Positions 6,076-20,812 of a stretch of DNA of 27,223 bases are shown one piece after another. The notes beneath the pieces were generated by a model, which saw only the letters and a list, made by a program, of their open reading frames with translations, was not told the origin of the DNA and searched no databases. Within the stretch, counting starts at the first letter, position 1. Every line of letters starts with the position of its first letter. This DNA is from a virus. The position numbers were made by a program, and so were the translations under genes. The stretch covers positions 1-27,223 of the IMG/VR virus record IMGVR_UViG_3300012931_000066. One strand, written 5' to 3'.

Positions 6076-6152
6076 GCATGGAAACCCATGCGGCGTTAAC
6101 TGATCCCAGTTGAAATATTGGCGCACCAATAAATGCCAAGCGCTCCTGCGCT
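6076..6152 (-). promoter_or_regulatory. Structured leader element, copy 1 (sheath)
   Basis: Listed in plus-strand order: hairpin D GCATGG-AAAC-CCATGC (6076-6091), hairpin A AACTG-ATCC-CAGTT (6098-6111), hairpin B TATTGG-CGCA-CCAATA (6116-6131), linker AATGCCA, hairpin C AGCGC-TCCT-GCGCT (6139-6152). Read on the minus strand it is the leader of the sheath gene and ends about 30 bases before the start codon. A further perfect 7-bp hairpin (AGCCTTT/AAAGGCT, 6157-6176) lies next to it over the stop of the previous gene. On the minus strand the loops of C and A read AGGA and GGAT. Confidence 0.75.
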
Positions 6153-6162
6153 CTATAGCCTT

Positions 6163-7254
6163 TTAACTTAAAGGCTGATCGTCTAAATCAACATTCGTTT
6201 GCATAATGAGATTATGTTGCTCATTTAAATAGCTATTGAATTTTAAGTCAATATCCCTAAACGCAACACTATCGTCATCATCAATCGTATCATCATAGCA
6301 TAAGTCAAATTGATTTTCGAACTTAAATTCATGTATATAATAAGCTGGGCTATATTCTATGAATTGATGCCCCACAAAACCAATCTTAAATTCAGTATCG
6401 TCAGCAAATATTGATGGGAAATGGCATCTTAAAATGCTTTTAAATATCGGAGAAGCTAAATCCTGCATTAAATCTCTAGCGTTTAATCCTCCGACCTCTC
6501 TAGTTGTTGGAGTAAATACATAAATCGAAAATGGCTCAATAATTCTCTGCCTAAAATCTGCGCCTACCGTACTTGTTTTAGTACCATCATTAAAAGTATA
6601 TCGATCTTTAGAAGCAGTAATATTATCTAATACCACAAAAGCATATAGCTGCCCTTCTCCTTGCTTGGTATACATTTCTGTAGCTCTCTGTATAGAATTA
6701 GCTCCAGTTACTCTTATATTTGCTTGCGCATAAATTGTACCAAGAGCTGGGCTTTCAGGCAGGCTTGTTATCTGATAAGTAAAAGTTTTATCATCAATTT
6801 TAGTTATCTGGTATAAGCCGTTATAACCATGTTTTATATTTTGAATCGTTTGAATAAGCGTCCCCGCAGCCGGAGACTCTGGGTTCCCTGTTATGCTAAA
6901 AGTAAACGTGCGTCGATTGGGAACCGTTAGCAATGGATGAGAACCATTATATTGGCTTTGGTCTGCGCCTGTAATATTAACAGTCTCTTGGTATCCTTGC
7001 GTGTAATCATGATTGCTATTTGTAATAGCTGTTGCAATATTGCCAGATTGCGTTAAGGAGTTAATAGTAATAGGGGTAATTGCTCCGCTTATATATACAT
7101 ACGCACCTGTAGATAATCCATGGTCAACGCTAGTTACCGCAGTTACAATTGCCGAGGATCTAGTTAAAGAAGTAATAGCTATATTATCACTAAATAAATT
7201 AGTGTACCTTGGTAATACAAGCCATAATTGCTTTACTATATCTTGAGCTTTCAT
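6163..7254 (-). CDS. Tail terminator-like protein with inserted beta repeats
   Basis: The 363-residue product lies between the tail-completion protein and the sheath, where contractile-tailed phages encode the tail terminator (Mu gp37 position). The C-terminal half (QRIIEPFSIYVFTPTTREVGG, then IFKSILRCHFPSIF) looks like such a protein. The N-terminal half, about residues 30-175, holds repeated beta units: SVDHGLSTGAYVYISGA, and two copies of a YNG...FTFSITGNPESPAAGT / FTYQITSLPESPALGT pattern. This motif is common in phage structural proteins and usually acts as a surface or binding domain. The terminator assignment is by position; the insertion makes the protein about twice the usual size. 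Confidence 0.6.
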   Translation of the reverse strand: MKAQDIVKQLWLVLPRYTNLFSDNIAITSLTRSSAIVTAVTSVDHGLSTGAYVYISGAITPITINSLTQSGNIATAITNSNHDYTQGYQETVNITGADQSQYNGSHPLLTVPNRRTFTFSITGNPESPAAGTLIQTIQNIKHGYNGLYQITKIDDKTFTYQITSLPESPALGTIYAQANIRVTGANSIQRATEMYTKQGEGQLYAFVVLDNITASKDRYTFNDGTKTSTVGADFRQRIIEPFSIYVFTPTTREVGGLNARDLMQDLASPIFKSILRCHFPSIFADDTEFKIGFVGHQFIEYSPAYYIHEFKFENQFDLCYDDTIDDDDSVAFRDIDLKFNSYLNEQHNLIMQTNVDLDDQPLS

Positions 7255-7757
7255 AGATTACCGACGCTATACTTCAAATTTTTAATAAAATAATCTTTAA
7301 ATATCGCCTTTTTATTGTTATAGGCAGCACTTAAAAAAGGTCTTGGCGCTATTTTTTGAGAACCCCTGCCAGTCATGGATATAATGTTTTTATATTCCAG
7401 ATATTTAGCATAAGTTGCCGCACCGTAATGCAAATCAATACCAACTTGTAGCTTTTTATCTCCTACCACATTAAAATTTAACGATCTTTTTAAAGTTCCG
7501 CTTACCACCGCAGGAGCTTCTCCCGCTGCGGACGCTATATAAGATATTCCCTTTTTTAATCGTTGCCCTTTAGTTCCTATCCTTTTTATGTAAGTTCTAC
7601 CACTTTTTGGCTTGCTATCTATTAAATTCTTAGCCTCCTTGGTTAAATCTTTTCCTAGGTCATAAAATGCTCGCCTAATAGATTTACTAGTAGCATCATT
7701 CAAATTTTTAATGCTTAGCTTAGCCCTATTATTAGCTTCTTCTACAATCTTTATCAT
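7251..7757 (-). CDS. Tail completion protein, HK97 gp10-like
   Basis: The 168-residue basic product carries RRAFYDLGKDLTKEAKNL, a SGRTYIKR-type strand, APAVVSGTLKRSLNF and DLHYGAATYAKYLE, ending with IAPRPFLSAAYN. The pattern 'SG-L-RS ... YA-YLE-G ... PRPFL--A' is typical of the HK97 gp10 family, which acts at the head-tail joint or tail end. Its ATG overlaps the stop of the head-closure gene (ATGA), consistent with coupled translation of joining proteins. Confidence 0.82.
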   Translation of the reverse strand: MIKIVEEANNRAKLSIKNLNDATSKSIRRAFYDLGKDLTKEAKNLIDSKPKSGRTYIKRIGTKGQRLKKGISYIASAAGEAPAVVSGTLKRSLNFNVVGDKKLQVGIDLHYGAATYAKYLEYKNIISMTGRGSQKIAPRPFLSAAYNNKKAIFKDYFIKNLKYSVGNL

Positions 7758-8149
7758 GCAAAATTTACCTGCCTAGTCTTGTCGCCACGTAAAACCGCAT
7801 ACATTCTTAAAAACTTCAATTCCATTCCTAGCTCTTCAACCGTTATAATGTCGTAATATATTCCACGATATTCTATCCAGTCCTCGGCAGTAATTGTAAT
7901 CGTCGCAGGCTTCCTAATCCAAATTTTGTGAGTAGCTACTTTTTCTGTATTAGTGCTGTCAAAAATAGCCGTGCCTCCAGTGGTTTCAATATTCGCCCAA
8001 ACTTGAAGCTTCGCTGTAAAAGATTCCCCAGCGTTCACGTCGGGATATGTCGGTGCTTTTATCTGCCTAAGATTAATAGTTATAAAGCAATTTAACGACC
8101 CTGCGTCAACCAACTCCATGCCTTTTTTTGTAAATCTATATCTCGGCAT
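7754..8149 (-). CDS. Head-tail joining (head closure) protein
   Basis: The 131-residue product is beta-rich and includes TAKLQVWANIETTGGTAIF, EKVATHKIWIRKPATIT and DWIEYRGIYYDIITVEELG. The W-A-I-T/H-I-IR---I---D-I-Y-G--Y-I pattern is that of the phage head-tail joining family (SPP1 gp16-like), which closes the portal after packaging. It sits between the connector and the gp10-like protein, as in other HK97-type modules. Confidence 0.8.
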   Translation of the reverse strand: MPRYRFTKKGMELVDAGSLNCFITINLRQIKAPTYPDVNAGESFTAKLQVWANIETTGGTAIFDSTNTEKVATHKIWIRKPATITITAEDWIEYRGIYYDIITVEELGMELKFLRMYAVLRGDKTRQVNFA

Positions 8150-8150
8150 A

Positions 8151-8852
8151 TCACACTATGTTTATGAAAAACCCTCCGAAAATATCTTGCGGACGGTATT
8201 TCATGATTACATCTAACGCGTGGTTCGGTAACGCATTTAGCCCCGCACCTTCTGAGCCTGTTCCTTTCGAAGCCATTCCCGCTATATCATTGTCGCCACG
8301 GTTAGCATATAACCACGCAACAATGTGGTATAAGCAAGTCTTTATATCGGCAGGAACAACATCCGCCGTAGCAGCCAACCCCGCTACAAATTGTATTTTA
8401 ATCGCTTGCTCTACGTAATCGATATCAGAAGACCATTGCTGATCTGGCTTTAATTTAATTTGAGCATATTCAGGATTGGAACTAACCACATAATAGATAT
8501 TAGGATCTACTGTCGTATAAACCCCGTTAACAAGGTATTGAAAAGAAGTTAAGCTGACAAACTTAATTCTTCTCAATTCAAATTGCCCTACATCTGTAAA
8601 ATTGTTCCTGTAAGTAATCCAGTTTTGGTTAATTATGCTTGTATTGGTATAATCTTCGAAAATTTTAACCGCAGACTGGATTAGAGTTGTCACATAAGTA
8701 ATTTGTGCCGCAGCCGTAGCATTATCAATTCTAACATGCGCCGCGGCTTCGTCAACCGAAATAGGCAAAATTGTTCTAGCTGCGCCTTCTGTATATGCCC
8801 AGTTTTCTGCCTCTACAACAATTTTGTTCGGAGCGAATGATGATAAATACAT
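8151..8852 (-). CDS. Head-tail connector protein, gp6-like
   Basis: The 233-residue product has the connector layout: VDEAAAHVRIDN near residue 35, then helices around ITYVTTLIQSAVKIFEDYTNTS, a strand section (FELRRIKFVSLTSFQYL), and a C-terminal helix (DIKTCLYHIVAWLYANRGD). 'D-(E)A--H-R-D---D...A---E--T-' is the signature of phage gp6-like connectors that form a ring below the portal. It is followed two bases later by the head-closure gene. Confidence 0.82.
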   Translation of the reverse strand: MYLSSFAPNKIVVEAENWAYTEGAARTILPISVDEAAAHVRIDNATAAAQITYVTTLIQSAVKIFEDYTNTSIINQNWITYRNNFTDVGQFELRRIKFVSLTSFQYLVNGVYTTVDPNIYYVVSSNPEYAQIKLKPDQQWSSDIDYVEQAIKIQFVAGLAATADVVPADIKTCLYHIVAWLYANRGDNDIAGMASKGTGSEGAGLNALPNHALDVIMKYRPQDIFGGFFINIV

Positions 8853-8868
8853 TATTACTCATTAAATA

Positions 8869-9324
8869 CTAAGTAGAGCTAAATGTTACGCTATTGTTAT
8901 AAACAATCTGCCATTGCGTAGCCGACTTATAGCAGATTCTCAACTCATCAGCAGCAGCGTCAAAAGTAGCAGTGTTATTGGTACCATCGAAAGTAACTCC
9001 AGTCGCCGTTTTAACGGTTACAGAGCCAGAAGTAATACTTGCCAGCCATATATCTAAAAAGCAACCATCCGTTGGAGCGGCTAACGTTAAAGCAAACCCC
9101 GTCCCACCAACAACAGCGACCTTTCCGCTTGTCGCCAAAGCTCCAGCAGCGCTTACAGAGTAAGCATCATTAGAGCTTGCAATATTTAAAAGCTTAGCAG
9201 CGGATATTGATGTACCATTCATATCTATAGTGCCATATATAGCCAATTGATTATCATTAGCTATTCCACTTGTGGATTGTTCCGGTTGCTTGAAACCATT
9301 CAATACATTTGCATCAAATGACAT
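8869..9324 (-). CDS. Probable capsid decoration / head fibre-like protein
   Basis: The 151-residue product is low-complexity and rich in Ala, Ser, Thr and Gly, with alternating strands (GTGFALTLAAPTDGCFLDIW, SGSVTVKTATGVTF). The 'LTLAAPTDG--L-I' pattern occurs in phage head-decoration and fibre domains. The ATG lies inside the end of the preceding small gene and has a good ribosome site (GAGGT). A virion surface role is inferred from composition and position between capsid and connector; no catalytic motif is seen. Confidence 0.5.
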   Translation of the reverse strand: MSFDANVLNGFKQPEQSTSGIANDNQLAIYGTIDMNGTSISAAKLLNIASSNDAYSVSAAGALATSGKVAVVGGTGFALTLAAPTDGCFLDIWLASITSGSVTVKTATGVTFDGTNNTATFDAAADELRICYKSATQWQIVYNNSVTFSST

Positions 9325-9511
9325 AATCTTTTACCTCGTAATTAATTTTTAACATTTTGTTATGAAACTTACTAACAGCATTTCTGTTATCGATGATAGC
9401 CACCTTCTCCTTTATAAGGAATTGGGCAGCTTCATCGGTAACAAGGTATATTTTACCCCGATCAAACAATTGGTCTTTATGCTTATATTTCTTAAGCATA
9501 AAAATTTTCAT
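9314..9511 (-). CDS. Small conserved head-region protein
   Basis: The frame gives 65 residues starting MKIFMLKKYKHKDQLFDRGK, with DEAAQFLIKEKVAIID in the middle. Short proteins of the form 'K-L----D---F--G--Y-V----A--L---G-A' are common right after the major capsid gene in phages, role unknown. The ATG at 9509-9511 overlaps the stop of the upstream gene (TAATG), which favours it over a start ten codons earlier. Its end overlaps the next gene by 11 bases. Confidence 0.6.
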   Translation of the reverse strand: MKIFMLKKYKHKDQLFDRGKIYLVTDEAAQFLIKEKVAIIDNRNAVSKFHNKMLKINYEVKDYVI

Positions 9512-9981
9512 TATTTGTCTTTTGCTGTTGGTTTTATCCATGGATACCCTAATGTTGCAATAGCACTTAAAGTACCGCCCGTTGTAACCCCTGTGCTCGT
9601 AATCCTCAACTGAACATATCGATATTTATTCAAACATCCAATACGAGCAACAGCATTGTCATCACTAGCTGCAAAAGTAGCGTCGCCAATTGGATCAACT
9701 ACTGTAGACGCATAACTCGGACGCTCACCAGTAACGTTAGTAGTTCCAATCAAGAAATCACTTGTTATTGCGACAGCTCCAGACATACCTGAATCATCGC
9801 TTTGGTATATCGCAGGAACATAAGTTCCGTCCGTTATAGCCCCGGAGTGAATAACAAACTCTGTAGCCTCAAATCCTAAAGTATCAATAATATTGCCACT
9901 AGTCGTGGTATTAGTAGAGATAGCTCCGATATTTAAAGCATTAGCGTTTTTAATTTCGTTATGTAAATCTAACTTAGCCAT
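9511..9981 (-). CDS. Hypothetical virion protein after major capsid
   Basis: The 156-residue product is rich in Thr, Ala and Asp, lacks Cys except one, and has beta-type segments (FVIHSGAITDGTYVPAIYQS, RYVQLRITSTGVTTGGTL). The 'GTY-P-I-QSDDSGMSGA' and 'YVQLRIT-TG-T-GG' patterns occur in many phage proteins next to the major capsid gene, suspected capsid cement or stabilising proteins. There is a clear ribosome site (AGAGGTAA). Function is inferred from position only. Confidence 0.65.
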   Translation of the reverse strand: MAKLDLHNEIKNANALNIGAISTNTTTSGNIIDTLGFEATEFVIHSGAITDGTYVPAIYQSDDSGMSGAVAITSDFLIGTTNVTGERPSYASTVVDPIGDATFAASDDNAVARIGCLNKYRYVQLRITSTGVTTGGTLSAIATLGYPWIKPTAKDK

Positions 9982-12876: not shown

Positions 12877-13170
12877 ATGCAAATCAAATTAAAACATCCT
12901 AACAGTAACGTAATAGAGCAAATCCCTGTAGGTTTTTCTTGGACGATCATATTTTTTTATCCCTTAGTTCCATTGTTTAGGGGTGATATAAAATATTTAT
13001 TTCTATTTGTTGTTATTGGTCTTTTGACTTTTGGCGTTGGAGGATGGCTTTTCTTTGCATGGCAATATAATGAAATATGCCTTAAAAAATTATTAAGGCT
13101 TGGATATATTCCTGCAGATGATAAAGCAAAAGCTTATTTAATAAGAGTTGGGTTTTATAAAAATGATTAA
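12877..13170 (+). CDS. Small membrane protein
   Basis: The 97-residue product has an excellent ribosome site (GGAGG, eight bases before ATG). It starts MQIKLKHPNSNVIEQIPVGF and then carries two hydrophobic segments, about residues 22-36 and 40-65 (YLFLFVVIGLLTFGVGGWLF), followed by a basic tail with YNEICLKKLLRLGYIPADD. This arrangement resembles a family of short bacterial and phage inner-membrane proteins of unknown role. It is the first gene of a plus-strand block set against the direction of the virion genes, which fits an accessory (moron-type) function; this is inference. Confidence 0.7.
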   Translation: MQIKLKHPNSNVIEQIPVGFSWTIIFFYPLVPLFRGDIKYLFLFVVIGLLTFGVGGWLFFAWQYNEICLKKLLRLGYIPADDKAKAYLIRVGFYKND

Positions 13171-13384
13171 CGATAATTGCAACTCACCATTTGAAACACT
13201 GTCACAGGAAGAAACGGCGGAAATGCTTGGAGTAAGAACCAGCACCCTCGCCTCTTGGCGGAGTTCTGGAAAATATGGTTTAAAGTACATAAAGATCGGA
13301 AAGAAAATTACTTACATGAAAAAAGACGTAAAAGAATTTATTGAATCATGCAAGATAATTCCTAAAAACAAAATAATAAGGTGA
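13163..13384 (+). CDS. Excisionase/MerR-like HTH DNA-binding protein
   Basis: The product (73 residues from the ATG at 13163) contains SQEETAEMLGVRTSTLASWR followed by GLKYIKIGKKITYMKKDVKE. This is the winged-helix HTH_17 pattern of excisionases and small regulators: a helix-turn-helix that recognises DNA, then 'Y-KIG---Y---D---F'. The chosen ATG overlaps the stop of the membrane-protein gene; a start five codons earlier is possible. A second protein of the same type is encoded at 21721-21936. It may regulate the block or help excision; no integrase is visible in this window. Confidence 0.75.
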   Translation: MINDNCNSPFETLSQEETAEMLGVRTSTLASWRSSGKYGLKYIKIGKKITYMKKDVKEFIESCKIIPKNKIIR

Positions 13385-13388
13385 AAAA

Positions 13389-13718
13389 ATGAGCAATATA
13401 AAAAACGCTTATATTAAAAGAGCTGAAATAATTATAGAAGACCACGGACTGCTAACTGCATTCCTTGACTTAAATTATGGAGGAATGGGTCAAGGGTTTG
13501 GAGGGCGTTGCTTATTCAACGAAAAATTTAAAGACCAAGATTGTTGCGGTAATTTTATCTGGGGATGTCTTAAGATATGCGGAGTTGATTCATGGGGTCG
13601 AGTAGCTGGCAGTCATGTAAGAGTTATAAGCGATAGCGACAAAGTGCACCGAATAGGTCACATCATCGAAGATATCTGGTTTGACGGAAATGAAATTATT
13701 AAAAATCTTGAGAGGTAA
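13389..13718 (+). CDS. Conserved phage protein of unknown function
   Basis: The 109-residue product contains EDHGLLTAFLDLNYGGMGQG, GRCLFNEKF, GNFIWGCLKICGVDSWG and a C-terminal KVHRIGHIIEDIWFD. Short proteins with 'I-DHG-LTA---L-YGG-GQGFGG' and 'F-----L-I-GV--W----G--VRV' are widespread among phages and prophages, but I know of no assigned function. Gene spacing to the upstream HTH gene is four bases, so they form one transcription unit. Confidence 0.75.
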   Translation: MSNIKNAYIKRAEIIIEDHGLLTAFLDLNYGGMGQGFGGRCLFNEKFKDQDCCGNFIWGCLKICGVDSWGRVAGSHVRVISDSDKVHRIGHIIEDIWFDGNEIIKNLER

Positions 13719-13722
13719 AAAT

Positions 13723-14169
13723 ATGAAAATAAATACAATTAACAAGCCAAGCAATAGAGGTGCTTGGCTATCCCTTGGGGCTTATACAGCGATCATTATA
13801 TCCACAATTATATTTATCTCTATATTCGGCAATCTTGGGTGGGGATTTTTCGCTACTAGTTTGGTTGGCGGCGCTGCTAGCCTGTACGCTGGAATCTTTA
13901 TCATGCTCTTTAGCAGGGTATTGGAACACCGATGTAAATTAGAACAACTTTTGCCAGCCCCTAAATTACCAGCTGGCATTAAGATATTAGGGGGATTAAG
14001 CTTTGCGGTAATATTGCTAATCTTTGGCTTCCTGAATGGTCAAGGAGAGATTGACGCTGGAACTTTAACCGTGTGGGCTTTTGTTTCTTCGGCATGTTTA
14101 GGCTCTATCATTGGTTATGCTTACGGGGAAATTTGCTGCAAGAATTGTAAGGAGAAAACTAAGATATGA
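13723..14169 (+). CDS. Four-helix integral membrane protein
   Basis: The ATG at 13723 is preferred because GAGAGG lies eight bases upstream; the frame is open 14 codons further. The 148-residue product has four hydrophobic segments at about residues 20-37, 42-65, 83-103 and 111-130 (LGAYTAIIISTIIFISIF; GLSFAVILLIFGFLNG; VSSACLGSIIGYAYG) and a short Cys/Lys-rich tail. No enzyme motif is seen. It could be a superinfection-exclusion or envelope protein, but nothing in the sequence decides this. Confidence 0.65.
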   Translation: MKINTINKPSNRGAWLSLGAYTAIIISTIIFISIFGNLGWGFFATSLVGGAASLYAGIFIMLFSRVLEHRCKLEQLLPAPKLPAGIKILGGLSFAVILLIFGFLNGQGEIDAGTLTVWAFVSSACLGSIIGYAYGEICCKNCKEKTKI

Positions 14170-14450
14170 AAATAGAGAAAATTAGCTTAGAAAATGGCGT
14201 CTGCATTAAAGACGCAATTAAGCTTCTTGCCGATAAGCTCGACGAAGTGATTGATGCACAAAATAGCGAACGTAAAGAATTAGGTCAAGTGAGAGATTTT
14301 TTAAGTACGTTAGCTAAAACAGTCTCTAGGATGGATTACGATAACGCTGACCTTATAAAAGCAGTCGAACACTTAAATTCTTTTGCACAAATTGGCATGA
14401 TTCAATTGGGAAGAAAGCACGCAAATAAAAATGAAGATATACCCAACTAA
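14166..14450 (+). CDS. Small helical, coiled-coil protein
   Basis: The 94-residue product overlaps the upstream membrane-protein gene by ATGA, so the two are probably translated together. It is predicted from composition to be almost all helix (KDAIKLLADKLDEVIDAQNS; VRDFLSTLAKTVSRMDYDNA) with a heptad-like spacing of Leu/Ile. No known domain was recognised. A soluble partner for the membrane protein encoded just before it is plausible but only inferred. Confidence 0.6.
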   Translation: MKIEKISLENGVCIKDAIKLLADKLDEVIDAQNSERKELGQVRDFLSTLAKTVSRMDYDNADLIKAVEHLNSFAQIGMIQLGRKHANKNEDIPN

Positions 14451-14761: not shown

Positions 14762-15570
14762 TCAAAAAACGTCTCGTGACAACACCTGCAGTTAACAAGA
14801 TTATCTTCGCTAGCTCCTAAACTATCATCTCCCGGAAACATCATCTCTTCTCCATTTACTTCAAAAGGTTCTTCAGCGTCAACTACATCGCCATCCACTT
14901 CAGCATGCCATTCTCTGGTATGATCATCGAGAATAGTAACCCACATCTTTTGGGCTTTCATTTCGTTAATGTTAACGCCGTCGAACTCAGCGTTAGTTTC
15001 TGATAGCGTTTCATACTCCAAAGACTTGCCGCTTTCTGCCGCCGCTTGAGTCTCGGTAATGGATATCATAATGCTGCGAGCATCAAATCTTTCTTTTAAT
15101 ATATCTTTAGCCCTTGATGCGATAGATTTATTGCTTAATGATGCCTCTTCTTTTTCAGCTTCTTCCTTTGCTCTTTTAATTGCCGTGTCCATATTTTTAC
15201 GAGTAGTGTCAGTTATCTGATGCGCCATTAAGTGGCTACGCTGAGCTGCAAATCCTTTTATGTGAGCGTCGAGTCTTTGACTAACTCTCGCGGCGTTATG
15301 AGGCTTACCTAAAACCTCTCTAATCTGCCCGGAAAACTTTTTAGCTGTAGATTGATGAATATCTTTTAATCCTTTTTCTAGCAACGCTCTATGATGTTCT
15401 AAATGCGGAGGGTGACCGTATGCGGCATAGCTCTTCTGAAAGTCTGATAAGACCTTGTTGAACACTTTTCTAACTGGTTTAATGTTTTTAGTTTCCAGCT
15501 TAAGCTTTTGTGCATAATTGCCAGCTGCGCGCTTATAAAGCTTCCGAGCGGTTTCATTACTAATCGCCAT
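14758..15570 (-). CDS. MuF-like minor head protein (SPP1 gp7-type)
   Basis: The 270-residue product follows the portal gene with an 11-base overlap, the usual place of MuF. The N-terminal two thirds are helical and basic (HHRALLEKGLKDIHQSTAKK), and the C-terminus has the MuF signature: KMWVTILDDHTREWHAEVDG followed by NGEEMMFPGDDSLGASEDN and VNCRCCHETFF, where conserved Asp/His/Cys residues sit. MuF proteins enter the prohead and help DNA ejection or minor capsid assembly. No C-terminal toxin extension is present. The gene ends against the converging plus-strand block. Confidence 0.88.
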   Translation of the reverse strand: MAISNETARKLYKRAAGNYAQKLKLETKNIKPVRKVFNKVLSDFQKSYAAYGHPPHLEHHRALLEKGLKDIHQSTAKKFSGQIREVLGKPHNAARVSQRLDAHIKGFAAQRSHLMAHQITDTTRKNMDTAIKRAKEEAEKEEASLSNKSIASRAKDILKERFDARSIMISITETQAAAESGKSLEYETLSETNAEFDGVNINEMKAQKMWVTILDDHTREWHAEVDGDVVDAEEPFEVNGEEMMFPGDDSLGASEDNLVNCRCCHETFFE

Positions 15571-17032
15571 AATGAGTGCTTACCATTTCTTTAATTTCAT
15601 CGTCGGTAAATCTTCTCGAGCCATCCTTTTCTACCTGTTTTGATAACACATTAATAAACTTTTCTTTAGATGCCGCAATTGCTGCTTCGTCTTCTTCTGC
15701 TGTACTTGAGTCATCATCATGGATATCGTCATCGGATTGGTCTAAGTCCTCTACGGGGAATCTTCCTGAAGTATCTTTAGCAACTGGAACTTGCATCGCC
15801 GCACCATAAATACTGTTGCCGCCATCCAAAGGTTCTGATCCACAATCAGCTCGAAGCTCATTCCTAGTAAATAACCCGCTTTGAATTTTTAGCTTCAACT
15901 GCTCATTCCTCCTCGTTTGCAGAGCTGGAATATTGTCTTCTTGGAAAGTTAGAATATATCTTCCCTCGGAGTCTCCGTAACGAGGCATTAAGAAATTAGT
16001 TAGTTCCTCGAAAATTCTTCTTGCGATCGGAAGCACAGCATTATCATATAAAAGGAATTTCGCCGTTTCCATGTTAGCCAAAGTCATGTGATCGGGGCTA
16101 ACTAAAGGCAGAGGTATTTTAAGCGCGTTATAGATAGCGTTAGTAACTTGTTTCTTAAGCTGGACATAGTCCATATCTCGAGGGTTCTTTAACAAGTCCT
16201 CATACTCTACTTGGTCATCTAATACAAGCGTTCTACCTGCGTTATTAGCTCCCCCAGCCGCATAGTTAATCTGCTCTTCCATTCTTTGCCGTTGGTCTTT
16301 CGGAAGCAATCTATCTTTAACTCTAAATAGCCCACCAAGTCTTGTAGCTCTCTGCAACGTAGACAGATTATGTTTTGCGCTGTCTACGTATTGCCGCATC
16401 TCGTAGAAAACATGATTAAGCGGACTAACGCCGTATACCATGTTTGAGCCAATGTAAGGATTAAACGTTCTAATATGATAAAGCTCTTTAAAATCATCGG
16501 CGTAATATCTAAATCTTACTTGACCATATTCTTTGACCTCGAATCGGTTAAAAGTATCAATTAAAGCCAATATCCTTGTAGTAATATTTCTCGGATATCC
16601 ATCATAATCAACAACTATTGTAGCCCCTTGAGATGGGGCAACCCGAATTGTCTTCGGAGGGTTATTTTTAAATCCTAAAGCGCGCAAATAAACGTTCCCA
16701 GTGACTAAATAAAACGTAACGATGGATTGAATAAATTCCTTATACGTTATATCTGCGTCAGGCTTATTAAGCAAATCTATTAAAGGGTGGTTATCAATAA
16801 ACTCTTCATTCTTTGTATCAAAAACTTTTGGCTGAATAGATGATACTTCCAGAGATATCTTATCAACTGCGGTAGCGACAGGAGCGCATTCTAGCCAAAA
16901 TAAAATCGCCTCGTTGGCAAAAACAATTGGCTTATCTCCAGTAGGATAAAGCGGCAACCCTGTAGGAACGCTGGGATTATTCATCTTACGATGGAATGGG
17001 GAAAAAGATTTAATTCTTTCTATGAATTTCAT
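15560..17032 (-). CDS. Portal protein, HK97 family
   Basis: The 490-residue product forms the dodecameric DNA entrance of the head. ECAPVATAVDKISLEVSSIQ, NKPDADITYKEFIQSIVTFY and GNVYLRALGFKNNPPK are typical of HK97-type portals, as is the C-terminal LTFQEDNIPALQTRRNEQL and LTRNELR-like 'GLFTRNELRADCGSEPLDGG'. An acidic segment (about 430-450, Asp/Glu/Ser) precedes the C-terminus. It lies between large terminase and MuF. A structured leader (copy 4) fills the gap upstream. Confidence 0.92.
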   Translation of the reverse strand: MKFIERIKSFSPFHRKMNNPSVPTGLPLYPTGDKPIVFANEAILFWLECAPVATAVDKISLEVSSIQPKVFDTKNEEFIDNHPLIDLLNKPDADITYKEFIQSIVTFYLVTGNVYLRALGFKNNPPKTIRVAPSQGATIVVDYDGYPRNITTRILALIDTFNRFEVKEYGQVRFRYYADDFKELYHIRTFNPYIGSNMVYGVSPLNHVFYEMRQYVDSAKHNLSTLQRATRLGGLFRVKDRLLPKDQRQRMEEQINYAAGGANNAGRTLVLDDQVEYEDLLKNPRDMDYVQLKKQVTNAIYNALKIPLPLVSPDHMTLANMETAKFLLYDNAVLPIARRIFEELTNFLMPRYGDSEGRYILTFQEDNIPALQTRRNEQLKLKIQSGLFTRNELRADCGSEPLDGGNSIYGAAMQVPVAKDTSGRFPVEDLDQSDDDIHDDDSSTAEEDEAAIAASKEKFINVLSKQVEKDGSRRFTDDEIKEMVSTHYGD

Positions 17033-17134
17033 ATCAACCGATAATAATAATTAATAAATTGATGTTATTAACTGTTACCAGTTGACAAATTAGAATAATC
17101 TAATAAGTGACAAGCGATTAAATTAGCGTAATCG
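17033..17134 (-). promoter_or_regulatory. Structured leader element, copy 4 (portal)
   Basis: Plus-strand order: a weak hairpin D (ATCAA 17033-17037 with TTGAT 17059-17063), hairpin A AACTG-TTAC-CAGTT (17070-17083), hairpin B ATTAGA-ATAA-TCTAAT (17089-17104), linker AAGTGACA, hairpin C CGATTA/TAATCG (17115-17134) with an 8-base loop. Hairpin C spans the stop codon of the large terminase gene. On the minus strand this is the portal leader. Confidence 0.72.
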
Positions 17135-18536
17135 GGTCGCTAGAATTATAAATGATATATTGCAACGCCATGCTAATTGTGTCAACTATATCGTCGTGCT
17201 TGCCCTTCGGGAATGCCGCTGTTTCATCTAGAAAATCAAGCGCCCATGGAGCATTTTCAGGTATCCATACTCTCCCATTCTTAACTAATGTTGCTATAGC
17301 TCTTGCCCTTATTTCTTTTGAGCCTTCAGGTTTGATTGCTTGAATCGGTAGATAAGTATCTCGTGTTAGTTCCTGTATTGCGCCCCTTCCCGATTGTTCG
17401 TTTTCTATCAACATTATATACGGGCGGTGATAATTGAATAAAGCAACTAATTGATCTTTTAAATCTGGATATTCTACTTTGTCACGCCACATATCGATTA
17501 AATAAATATCTGCACCTTTAACACCCCATGTTGTACACACCGAAAAATCATTCTCCTTTTTCGTTTCCCATGCACTATCAATCGCCTGCAAAGTAAAATC
17601 AAATTCGGTTGGCAGTTCTGCGTATCTCTTCCACCAGTCACGCTTAAAGATATTACCACCGTCAATTTCGGGAGATAGCTGGAAAAGAGCATTAAACATT
17701 GACGGATTATCAGCGCGCTTCTGTTCCAATGCTGTCCTAGATTGCAAATCTGGACATAGAGGATCGCCAACAGTCCTACCTAACGGGTCGCCTTCCTTTG
17801 CCAAGGCTGGAAGCTTTATCACTTCCCAGATGGGATTGCCAGCAACATCCTTCTGAGCCATAAGCCTGTGCGCTATATCGTCATAATGCCACGGCGTCAT
17901 TATTAAGATTTTAGACACCTTGCTAAGTTCCGAGTCTCTAAGCCTGCCAACTATTCCCCAGTTGTACTCTTGCATAATCTTTTCGCGTTGAAGCTGAGAA
18001 TAAGCCTGTTCAAAATTCCTGTATGGATCGTCTATAATAATTAGATCAGTAGGCGTTCCCGTTACTCCACCTTGGAATGAAAAGTATTTGATAAACCCGC
18101 CTTCATGCGTTACTAGTAGATCGCTTCTTGAAGTTTCTAAAATTCCGAGCTTGTCTAACATCCTTTTAGTCGGCATTGCAAAGTTATCAGCCACAAACCT
18201 CGTAGTGTGCCCTACAACCATTATGCGTCGGTCGCGATATTTATTGAGTATGTATGCGGGGAAATGGACTGTAACAAAGGTACTTTTACCGTGCTGGGGC
18301 GGGCTTAAAATAATAGTACTGACTGAAGCGCCTTGGTCGTACCGATCTAGAGCCTTGCCTATATAATCCAAGTGCGAATAATCCCAATTATAATGAGGAG
18401 AAGTTTCTTTAAGCCAGTCTTTATAGCTCTTGCTCGCCGCTCTCCTCCGCCTCTCCATCTCCGCTATTATCAGCTTCTGATGCAAGGTAGTCTGTGAGAT
18501 CTGCTCTGCCGTCAAGTACTGCTCGTAATTGTTCAT
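17118..18536 (-). CDS. terL: Terminase large subunit
   Basis: The product (up to 472 residues) is the DNA-packaging motor. The ATPase shows Walker A SPPQHGKSTF at residues 78-87 and Walker B LIIIDDPY at about 165-172. The RNase H-like nuclease shows AIDSAW near residue 312 and the C-terminal acidic motif KGKHDDIVDTISMALQYI. The start is uncertain: the first ATG overlaps the small subunit by 116 bases and has no clear ribosome site, and Met27 (18456-18458) overlaps by 38 bases. It is in the same operon as the small subunit and portal. Confidence 0.93.
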   Translation of the reverse strand: MNNYEQYLTAEQISQTTLHQKLIIAEMERRRRAASKSYKDWLKETSPHYNWDYSHLDYIGKALDRYDQGASVSTIILSPPQHGKSTFVTVHFPAYILNKYRDRRIMVVGHTTRFVADNFAMPTKRMLDKLGILETSRSDLLVTHEGGFIKYFSFQGGVTGTPTDLIIIDDPYRNFEQAYSQLQREKIMQEYNWGIVGRLRDSELSKVSKILIMTPWHYDDIAHRLMAQKDVAGNPIWEVIKLPALAKEGDPLGRTVGDPLCPDLQSRTALEQKRADNPSMFNALFQLSPEIDGGNIFKRDWWKRYAELPTEFDFTLQAIDSAWETKKENDFSVCTTWGVKGADIYLIDMWRDKVEYPDLKDQLVALFNYHRPYIMLIENEQSGRGAIQELTRDTYLPIQAIKPEGSKEIRARAIATLVKNGRVWIPENAPWALDFLDETAAFPKGKHDDIVDTISMALQYIIYNSSDPITLI

Positions 18537-18888
18537 CGGTTAATTTACTCACGTCTGGAACTTTGTTGTAAGATACGGCAACATTTTGCACTGCCTTGCC
18601 TTCAGTTCTATCCATGATTTTATCAATCGCGCCAAGAGCCGCAGAAGGGTTCTTAGACAATGTTAATAAAAAAGTTCTTAATGCCAAGAACTCTGACATG
18701 TTTTTTATGTTAAACTTCTTTACTAGCGACTTAAAATCCTCTGACAAGTTTAACTTATCTATGCCAGCGTTTAAAAGTCTTCGCATATTTGCCGATACCG
18801 GAGTATATCCTTTAGGTCTTCCCCCCCCCCTAATTCTAGGATCTCCCTTTGCGAATGGCACTAAGTTTTTTAATGAATTTTCGTGCAT
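18421..18888 (-). CDS. Terminase small subunit-like DNA-binding protein
   Basis: The 155-residue product starts MHENSLKNLVPFAKGDPRIR and continues with GGGRPKG, a basic N-terminal motif common in small-terminase and related proteins. Helices around VSANMRRLLNAGIDKLNLSE and LSKNPSAALGAIDKIMDRTE follow, and the C-terminus is acidic. The position directly before the large terminase is the main support. The GGG codons form a run of ten identical bases (see separate entry). A strong promoter lies directly upstream, with AGAGAG as ribosome site. Confidence 0.75.
   Translation of the reverse strand: MHENSLKNLVPFAKGDPRIRGGGRPKGYTPVSANMRRLLNAGIDKLNLSEDFKSLVKKFNIKNMSEFLALRTFLLTLSKNPSAALGAIDKIMDRTEGKAVQNVAVSYNKVPDVSKLTDEQLRAVLDGRADLTDYLASEADNSGDGEAEESGEQEL
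18821..18830 (-). repeat. Ten-base poly-G tract in terminase small-subunit gene
   Basis: The minus strand has ten G in a row, coding for the Gly-Gly-Gly of RGGGRPKG (about residues 21-24). In this AT-rich DNA such a tract is exceptional. Loss or gain of one base would shift the frame after about 20 codons. Confidence 0.95.
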
Positions 18889-18909: not shown

Positions 18910-18938
18910 ATTATAAGAGCATTAACCTAATTTATCAA
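18910..18938 (-). promoter_or_regulatory. Strong sigma70-like promoter for terminase/head genes
   Basis: The minus strand reads TTGATA (18933-18938), 17 bases, TATAAT (18910-18915): five and six of six consensus bases. The -35 overlaps the 3' end of the methyltransferase gene. Transcription would start near 18903, 15 bases before the small-terminase ATG. Confidence 0.7.
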
Positions 18939-20054
18939 GACAGCCTTATTCCCTGTAAGTTTCTCCCATCTCGCGATGATAACATCAACATAGCGCGGCG
19001 ATATTTCCATGCCATAGCAGTCGTAAACAATGTCATCTTTTTTGCTTCCATCTTTAATAAGTTTGGCTAAAAGCTCTGTTGGCTTCATCGTCGGATGCAA
19101 ATCGTTTTTAAGTGGCTTATCAAACTCCAAAACCGTTGTTGAGAAATCCCCATAAAATTTATGCTTCCCTTTCCATCCATATACACAAAATTCGTGTTTA
19201 GCATTATAATCTTTTCTTCCGAGAACGTGATTATTTTTAACCCATACAAGATAATCGCCCCACTTTATCTGGCAATCATCAAAGGCTAGCCTCAAATTAT
19301 GTAACTCCATGCCTAACATAAATACATAAAAAGTATTGTAGTCAGCGCAAGGAATAACGGATAAAAAGTCCGAAAAGAATTGCCTATAATCTTTGATGTT
19401 ATCATTATCAATAGGAGTTTGGTTTCGATTCCCTTTATCAATAGAATTAAGAAAATCATTTTTTGATGAATAATCTACGCCATACGGAGGATCTGTCAAA
19501 ACCATATTAACGCTTTCGCTTTGCAGTAAAGACGTTACATTATCCACAATGCAACAATCTCCACACATAACCCTATGCCTTCCAAGCTGCCAGACATCCC
19601 CAAGTTTTGCAACGCTTTCCACATCGTCAACCGCAGGAGCTTCATCTTCGACAGCTTCCTGTGTCACGTCAAAATTAAAATCCATCTCATCAAATCCAAT
19701 CTCCTTAAGAAATCCCATGTCATAGTCAGCAGCAAGCATTTCAAAGTTAAATTCTCCAGCTATATTTTTGTTAAGCCTAATATTAAGCTCTGCAAACTCT
19801 TCTTGGGTAAGTTCCCTACTTGGGAAATAACAATCTACTTCTTTAACGCCTAAAGACTCTAAGACTTTTTTACGCCCGTGTCCGCCACAAATAGAGTTAT
19901 CAGTATTAACAACTAACGGTTCACAACATCCGAACTTTTGAATTGATTGCGTGAGCCTTGCGATACCTTCTTTATTTAGCACGCGCGGATTACGTTCCCA
20001 CTCTTTGAGATCGGATAATTTACGCTTTTCTAATGACCAAGTTAAATTGCTCAT
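18927..20054 (-). CDS. ParB-like nuclease / DNA methyltransferase fusion lacking motif I
   Basis: The 375-residue product has a ParB-like N-terminal domain (LKEWERNPRVLNKEGIARL; ICGGHGRKKVLESLG at 55-69) and a beta-class amino-methyltransferase domain: VLTDPPYGVDYSS (motif IV, DPPY at 188-191) and LHPTMKPTELLAKLI (motif X). In family members motif X is followed by a loop of the type D-F-G-SG-T that binds SAM. Here residues 344-349 read YDCYGME directly before ISPRYVDVII, so about 17-18 residues including the whole loop are missing in frame (junction near 19016/19017). The protein is probably inactive as a methyltransferase; the ParB part may still work. Its ATG overlaps the ferritin stop (ATGA). 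Confidence 0.85.
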   Translation of the reverse strand: MSNLTWSLEKRKLSDLKEWERNPRVLNKEGIARLTQSIQKFGCCEPLVVNTDNSICGGHGRKKVLESLGVKEVDCYFPSRELTQEEFAELNIRLNKNIAGEFNFEMLAADYDMGFLKEIGFDEMDFNFDVTQEAVEDEAPAVDDVESVAKLGDVWQLGRHRVMCGDCCIVDNVTSLLQSESVNMVLTDPPYGVDYSSKNDFLNSIDKGNRNQTPIDNDNIKDYRQFFSDFLSVIPCADYNTFYVFMLGMELHNLRLAFDDCQIKWGDYLVWVKNNHVLGRKDYNAKHEFCVYGWKGKHKFYGDFSTTVLEFDKPLKNDLHPTMKPTELLAKLIKDGSKKDDIVYDCYGMEISPRYVDVIIARWEKLTGNKAVLIN

Positions 20055-20542
20055 TTTTTGTGCATAAATTCGCTGTTTAACGCTTCAACCGCTCCAATAT
20101 CATCTTTGACGCGATTAATTGAAGTATAATTTAACAACGCTTCGCCCTCTTCCTCGACTTGTTCGTCGATAAAGTCTTTCATTAAAGACATTACCGAAAA
20201 ATCACCTTCAGCTACCGCAGCTTGGTAAATACCATTAATAGCTTGCGTTATATCTTTTTCGTGATAGTAAGCAGATGAAAACGGGTCAACAACTGAAATT
20301 GGATTAATCTGTGGGGCTTTGATATCTTTCAATTCAACGCTTATATTCACCTTAGTCATGAAATCGATAATCTTAAGCGCATGATCCGTTTCCTCGTCGA
20401 ATTTGCTAGCCATGTACTTAGCAAACCCTTCATAGTTTTGAAGGTTAAAATATATCGACAAAGCTAAGTATAATTGAGCAGAGTAAAACTCAAGGTTAAT
20501 TTGATCGTTTAGTAGTTGTTGTACTTTTTCTGATATTTGCAT
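20051..20542 (-). CDS. ftnA: Bacterial non-haem ferritin (FtnA type)
   Basis: The 163-residue product is a full-length ferritin: four-helix bundle subunit forming a 24-mer shell that oxidises Fe(II) and stores Fe(III). All ferroxidase-centre residues of E. coli FtnA have counterparts: E18 (NLEFYSAQLY), E51 and H54 (FDEETDHALKI), E95, Q128 and E131 (DEQVEEEGEAL), and Y25. The absence of haem-ligand Met places it with FtnA, not bacterioferritin. It is the first gene of the leftward phage operon, coupled by ATGA to the ParB-methyltransferase fusion, not to host iron genes. GAGGT seven bases before the ATG is the ribosome site, and the leader contains a CsrA-type hairpin. Confidence 0.93.
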   Translation of the reverse strand: MQISEKVQQLLNDQINLEFYSAQLYLALSIYFNLQNYEGFAKYMASKFDEETDHALKIIDFMTKVNISVELKDIKAPQINPISVVDPFSSAYYHEKDITQAINGIYQAAVAEGDFSVMSLMKDFIDEQVEEEGEALLNYTSINRVKDDIGAVEALNSEFMHKK

Positions 20543-20564
20543 AGAACCTCAAAAATAAAATAAA

Positions 20565-20576
20565 CTCATCCTTGAG
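20565..20576 (-). promoter_or_regulatory. CsrA-type binding hairpin in ferritin leader
   Basis: On the minus strand the leader reads CUCA-AGGA-UGAG, a 4-bp stem with AGGA as tetraloop, embedded in UCAAGGAUGA. This is close to the known CsrA consensus ACARGGAUGU with the GGA in a hairpin loop. It lies 27 bases before the ferritin ATG. Confidence 0.55.
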
Positions 20577-20594
20577 ATTTTAAGATCACGTACG

Positions 20595-20654
20595 CGCACT
20601 TTAGCATAATCTTAACTAAAAATGAACAAAATTAAGTGCGTTCCAAAATGGAAC
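20595..20654. promoter_or_regulatory. Inverted repeats in divergent control region
   Basis: CGCACTT (20595-20601) and AAGTGCG (20634-20640) form a 7-bp inverted repeat 32 bases apart. Directly adjacent is GTTCC-AAAAT-GGAAC (20640-20654). They lie between the leftward ferritin operon and the rightward early-type operon, where repressor sites are expected. No clear promoter for ferritin was recognised by eye in this interval. Confidence 0.45.
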
Positions 20655-20718
20655 ATACTGCCAAACCCCTTGATAACACTAACTAATTCTCGCTACTAAA
20701 AATATTCCACAAAAGCAC

Positions 20719-20746
20719 TTGACATACCATAATCATGCACTATAAT
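20719..20746 (+). promoter_or_regulatory. Sigma70-like promoter for the rightward operon
   Basis: TTGACA (20719-20724), 16 bases, TATAAT (20741-20746): both boxes perfect, spacing one base below optimum. It drives the genes from 20813 to 22963. Confidence 0.75.
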
Positions 20747-20812
20747 TACACTTAAGATACATTGATTAATGTGTCGGGTAAAAGTAAAAATAGTAAAAAT
20801 GAGGTTAAACAT

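Follow-up and report, generated by a model that had tools for sequence, protein, structure and literature searches.

Iron handling by phages has been discussed mostly in terms of stress genes of the Dps type or of the idea of iron-carrying tails. Dps and Mn-catalase, which are ferritin-superfamily iron and peroxide enzymes, have been reported in hundreds of gut phages, among them tailed phages of the Gratiaviridae and Flandersviridae and Lactobacillus phages, and they have been read as oxidative-stress genes (PMC8008677). A ferritin of giant viruses of eukaryotes (NCLDV), read there as a eukaryotic iron storage protein, has been proposed to manage iron during virion production (PMC7136201). 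A ferritin-like protein has been detected by mass spectrometry of phage Sajous1, and infection by Vi01-like phages was normal in tonB and feoB mutants, indicating no dependence on TonB or FeoB (PMC10892097). UniProt already contains phage proteins named non-heme ferritin. No paper on a phage-encoded ferritin of the FTN type was found in the open-access papers searched, nor was any description of a clade-wide association between ferritin and terminase found in the literature searched. Such a ferritin, kept beside packaging genes in one phage clade and recurring in head modules of unrelated phages, would offer a defined protein with which to probe the role of iron for a phage, and one with which cytoplasmic protection, host benefit and virion function could be separated.

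The window, the whole stretch of DNA that was analysed (27,223 nucleotides), is an IMG/VR virus record, a 27 kb contig of an uncultured myophage. Related loci are referred to below by L numbers. The features around the ferritin gene are as follows:

20543-20761, no strand: divergent intergenic region upstream of ferritin (motif scans)
20051-20542, minus strand: ferritin, 163 aa, non-haem FTN type (Pfam, AlphaFold, ligand check)
18927-20054, minus strand: ParB-like domain fused to an N6/N4 DNA methylase (PHROGs and Pfam)
18421-18888, minus strand: putative small terminase, TerS (position, and homology to the gene at the same position in L021, 47%, and L004, 41%; no family match)
17118-18536, minus strand: large terminase, TerL (Pfam, PHROGs, NCBIfam)
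15560-17032, minus strand: portal (Pfam; 70% identical in L021)

Ferritin is the first gene of its strand, and its boundaries match an entry in the ORF list of the window exactly. Its ATG is preceded by a GAGG ribosome-binding motif, and it is joined to the ParB-methyltransferase gene by an ATGA overlap of stop and start codons. The terminase operon starts 1.2 kb downstream on the same strand, and the terminases are followed by genes for the portal, a Mu F-like protein, prohead protease, major capsid, connectors, tail sheath, tape measure and baseplate hub. As tail sheath, tape measure and baseplate hub lie on this strand together with the head genes, the window is a fragment of a contractile-tailed phage. 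The GC content of the ferritin gene (35.8%) is inside the range of the other genes of the phage. In the divergent intergenic region, a perfect sigma-70-like promoter at 20719-20746 serves the opposite (plus-strand) operon, and a GTTCC-N5-GGAAC palindrome is situated at 20640-20654, upstream of ferritin; no consensus promoter for the ferritin strand was found in 20543-20761, and no Fur box was found upstream of ferritin or anywhere in the window. The window contains no Rfam family and no tRNA, and the operon has no DNA-level similarity to known phages. Within the minus-strand structural operon, an island of small plus-strand ORFs (12877-14450) lies between the Mu F-like and protease genes; none of them matches Pfam and two match PHROGs of unknown function.

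The protein matches the Pfam Ferritin family PF00210 with 101.4 bits (E 5e-29; curated cut-off, 24.5 bits), its only Pfam match. The di-iron ligands of sites A and B (E18, E51, H54, E95 and E131) are all present, as are the third-site (C) glutamates of the bacterial and archaeal type (E50, E127 and E130) together with Y25 and Q128, so that all ten residues checked are found; none of the ten varies among 28 cellular ferritins of many phyla. An AlphaFold model (pLDDT 96.5, pTM 0.90) has the full five-helix fold, with predicted helices A to E at 5-34, 38-64, 85-111, 115-145 and 149-159, the last being the short C-terminal E helix. The best structural matches in the PDB are archaeal and bacterial 24-mer ferritins with a TM score of about 0.96. 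Those of Archaeoglobus fulgidus (1s3q), Pyrococcus furiosus (2jd6) and Thermotoga maritima (1vlg) share the five helices (TM about 0.96 on the query), all the di-iron and third-site ligands and 33-36% identity with the window protein, which differs from archaeal and bacterial ferritins in residing in a phage packaging operon and in grouping with other phage ferritins on a long branch apart. Two UniProt viral proteins named ferritin, A0A8D9C9X5 (uncultured marine phage) and A0A8S5Q7U4 (Siphoviridae sp. ctrzs15), match it structurally over the full length (TM on the query, 0.96 and 0.90) at just 20-24% identity.

Several neighbouring families were considered and rejected. The NCBIfam matches are to non-heme ferritin models only. 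The E. coli FtnA type (PRK10304, NF007638) has the same domain, and 1eum aligns ungapped over 125 residues, but the window protein is not its equivalog, as it scores 69.4 bits with NF007638 against a cut-off of 178. Bacterioferritin, which has a haem-ligand Met and a site-B His, does not fit either: there is no Bfr family match in Pfam or NCBIfam, position 128 is Q and positions 130-131 are E-E, without a Bfr-type His. Dps, which has no E helix but an extra BC helix and an inter-subunit centre, is set aside since an E helix is predicted, the 65-84 loop has no helix and the best 50 PDB matches are all ferritins. Unlike the Dps and Mn-catalase of other tailed phages, the window protein is of the true FTN type, with a predicted E helix and its di-iron centre within the subunit, and is encoded beside terminase genes. 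Judged from sequence and model, the window gene encodes a complete, intact non-haem ferritin.

These results uphold the first-pass annotation where it had described a complete ferritin gene with every ferroxidase residue, coupled by ATGA to a ParB-methyltransferase gene and located just before terminase. The naming of the ParB-methyltransferase gene stands, with one correction. Its N-terminal ParB part and C-terminal methylase part are both supported by PHROGs and Pfam, but the methylase part is without the glycine-rich SAM-binding segment seen in its homologues in L056 (FLGTGTTLIACEQ) and L062 (FLGSGSTLIACEQ), an in-frame gap being found instead ('...IVYDCYGMEISPRY'). The gap may mean that the methylase is inactive, or it may be an assembly error.

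A search for ferritin next to terminase in other phages, which had been suggested from the window sequence, was productive. Four other uncultured phages (L021, L057, L058 and L145) encode a ferritin 27-44% identical to that of the window, and in all five carriers, which are metagenome contigs and mostly fragments, the gene lies 0.1-2.3 kb from the small-terminase gene. PHROG 16594, annotated as of unknown function, matches the ferritins of the window, L021, L057 and L058. The closest relative, L021 (37 kb), is 70% identical to the window in portal, 74% in capsid, 51% in TerL and 44% in ferritin. The genes around ferritin vary among the carriers and include those for a ParB-methylase, a GNAT acetyltransferase, an HTH protein and an HExxE protein. 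The gene order in L021 is ferritin, HExxE protein, GNAT acetyltransferase, small ORF, TerS and TerL; in L057 it is ferritin, HTH, HExxE protein, ParB, TerS and TerL; and in L145, which has a portal of a different family, it is ParB-methylase, 165-aa ORF, ferritin, TerS and TerL. In L058, ferritin is 80 bases from TerS on the opposite strand, and the two are therefore not co-transcribed there. As an observation apart, a conserved protein of 100-115 aa with an HE-I-[TA]-E motif (HEITE or HEIAE) is encoded in L021 (10535-10837), L057 (5936-6283) and L055 (20-361), between ferritin and ParB/TerS in the first two and upstream of ParB in the third. It has no Pfam or PHROG match and may be a metal-binding partner of the ferritin cassette.

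All ten ligands are kept in the ferritins of both the window and L021, and their retention at 44% identity is, as far as the sequences tell, purifying conservation. Site A and E95 are invariant in all five ferritins of the clade. Some of the other residues vary: L145 has K at 130; L057 has D50, D130 and S131; and L058 has K130 and G131. The B-site glutamate is thus lost in L057 (S) and L058 (G), and site C is altered in these two and in L145. Because ferroxidase ligands are lost in two relatives, the word 'complete' covers the window gene and its nearest relative rather than the whole clade. In some relatives the ferroxidase chemistry may, on the sequence evidence, be altered or lost with the fold kept.

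How long has this lineage had the gene? In the TerL tree (488 alignment columns), the five carriers fall in one clade with support of 94/93, which also includes two members for which no ferritin state was called. TerL relatives with 4 kb or more of upstream sequence number 40; 37 of these have no ferritin and the only carriers among them are L021, L057 and L145. L056, a neighbour of the carrier clade, shows no ferritin within the 2.7 kb of sequence available upstream of its TerL. In the ferritin tree (about 170 columns), the five clade ferritins lie on one side of a branch with 92 others on the other side (SH-aLRT 83), and those of the window and L021 are sisters on a long shared stem (SH-aLRT 97-99). 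Pairwise ferritin identity among the five carriers tracks TerL identity (Pearson 0.85; exact Mantel, 5/120). The clade ferritins split in a tree with very divergent viral ferritins and are joined when those long branches are left out (support 51; 83 in another tree), so a single origin is likely rather than proven. The best cellular ferritins, among the matches listed, are 36-44% identical to that of the window and scattered over phyla, none exceeding 44% and none being near-identical. The phylogeny that the first-pass annotation had proposed as a check on host derivation groups the clade ferritins together. That annotation had also named beforehand a recent chance pick-up and an inactive protein as outcomes that would count against it; what was found is that relatives keep the gene, that the best cellular match is at about 44% (among the matches listed) and that the ligands are intact. 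With four distant relatives having ferritin beside the same packaging genes, the lineage has kept the gene for a long time. We take this pattern of sequences as ancient co-inheritance of ferritin and the terminase module within a single phage clade, for which one acquisition in the clade ancestor followed by vertical descent is the simplest account.

The gene is not confined to this clade. A scan of viral contigs with ferritin or ParB-methylase by single sequences gave zero matches and profile scans were needed; these recovered further phage ferritins from IMG/VR, all above the Pfam cut-off where tested. In at least three unrelated phage groups ferritin lies inside the head and packaging genes. 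One of these groups consists of large phages with the order TerL, portal, ferritin, 397-aa ORF and major capsid, the ferritin being situated between portal (PHROG 6547) and major capsid (PHROG 11589):

L156, 9941-10498: ferritin
L158, 9941-10498: ferritin
L045, 9956-10495: ferritin
L159, 2829-3386: ferritin

In L044 ferritin comes directly after the portal gene, in L160 it has TerL/portal on one side and the capsid genes on the other, and in L047 it precedes a T4-type portal (a weak portal match). Other phage ferritins are found away from head genes, after putative recombination-type genes in L146 and L155 and away from the putative head genes in L157. The lineages are few, and the loci, limited in number, were chosen by similarity, so that the placement in head modules can be taken as no more than a hint. 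Several matches were not counted as phage ferritins: six unannotated tblastn matches in the phage collection (short faecal contigs and a Staphylococcus assembly) are probable host fragments; the ferritins of L024-L041 and L149-L151, IMG/VR records that stem from isolate genomes, are situated close to the ends of contigs or prophages and probably belong to the host; and that of L152, followed by a TonB-dependent receptor, was judged a host gene. The opinion that ferritin is not a normal phage gene thus does not hold as put, given its presence in several other phage groups, the phage Dps and Mn-catalase (PMC8008677) and the UniProt phage ferritins; it is uncommon but recurrent in phages.

What might the window ferritin do? 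The reading that we prefer, with a probability of roughly 0.55, is that it is an intracellular ferroxidase and iron store limiting damage by Fe2+ and peroxide during phage growth. A non-haem ferritin of the 24-subunit type, presumably assembled as a 24-mer, would be active in the cytoplasm of a cell that is infected or lysogenised. There, the di-iron centre would oxidise Fe2+ with O2 or H2O2, and the ferric mineral would be stored in the ferritin cage. The expected benefit, if the gene is expressed at that time, would be that phage DNA suffers less from Fenton chemistry and that iron is kept in reserve during DNA replication and packaging. The predicted fold and ligands, the operon position and the conservation in the clade underpin this reading, and the published Dps and Mn-catalase of gut phages (PMC8008677) also speak for it. 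Against it count the lack of a Fur box upstream and the position beside packaging genes, which points to expression at a late stage, when a protection of replication would be less important. Moreover, as L057 and L058 are without the B-site glutamate and these two and L145 have changes in site C, selection may in some members be maintaining something other than ferroxidase activity. Intracellular iron control had at first been favoured from gene position; it is still the most likely reading, but position alone does not favour it, since the head-module ferritins of unrelated phages make the location no less compatible with a role in the virion or in packaging.

The main alternative, which we consider clearly less probable, is that ferritin has its role in the virion or in head assembly and packaging, being in or on the particle for DNA protection, iron delivery or a structural purpose, or acting on the packaging machinery. 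The closeness to the small terminase in all five carriers is in keeping with such a role, as are the ferritins among portal and capsid genes of unrelated phages (L045, L156, L158, L159, L044 and L160, with L047 weak) and the weak structural match of several phage proteins named prohead protease to the ferritin bundle. In the window clade, however, ferritin is part of a stretch of variable cargo, and L058 has it and TerS on opposite strands; in L146, L155 and L157 it is away from head genes. A 24-mer ferritin cage, about 12 nm across, would not pass a portal, which also counts against this reading. The ferritin-like protein in the Sajous1 mass spectrometry fits a virion role, but the normal infection of tonB and feoB mutants by Vi01-like phages does not (PMC10892097); the 'Ferrojan horse' idea raised initially has no direct support here, the single published test of it with a ferritin-like phage protein having shown no TonB or FeoB dependence.

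We regard as rather unlikely that ferritin is a lysogenic-conversion (moron) gene by which a prophage or phage-plasmid lets its carrier store more iron or better tolerate peroxide. Being the first gene of its unit in the variable region by TerS, a usual site for cargo, with neighbours that differ among relatives, it would suit this role, and L021 encodes a ParA-type partition protein. On the other hand, the window yielded no integrase, repressor or plasmid origin, a portal-pattern search of limited sensitivity through 84,980 species genomes turned up no prophage relative, and the putative replication protein has no plasmid match. A broader conjecture, which we hold to be unlikely, is that ferritin cages are a recurrently recruited part of the head and packaging modules of tailed phages, made with terminase, portal and capsid genes in several unrelated lineages and packaged in or docked to the virion, where they would protect the genome or deliver iron. 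That the phage recently acquired a host ferritin by chance, as a gene without function in the phage, is hardly credible and is rejected: phages do capture host genes, and the donor could be unsampled as the closest cellular ferritins (among the matches listed) are scattered over many phyla, but the same gene occupies the same place in four diverged relatives, the carriers form one TerL clade, and the window and L021 ferritins are sisters on a long stem with no cellular ferritin above 44% identity among the matches listed.

Two further features of the carrier contigs may be recorded. In L021, two identical 140-aa ORFs (in 6136-6863 and 6898-7640) are each followed by an ORF, and these next ORFs share the N-terminal sequence MPRKISFMFRSIYLATITNYAGG, marking a tandem duplication of about 0.78 kb. 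In L145, the Mu F-like minor-head ORF (7824-9635, 603 aa) is interrupted by a long insertion (roughly 'GHPGEDINCFLGATKF' to 'YNLETFSNSYIINDNLLMSNCRC') which by eye looks like an intein.
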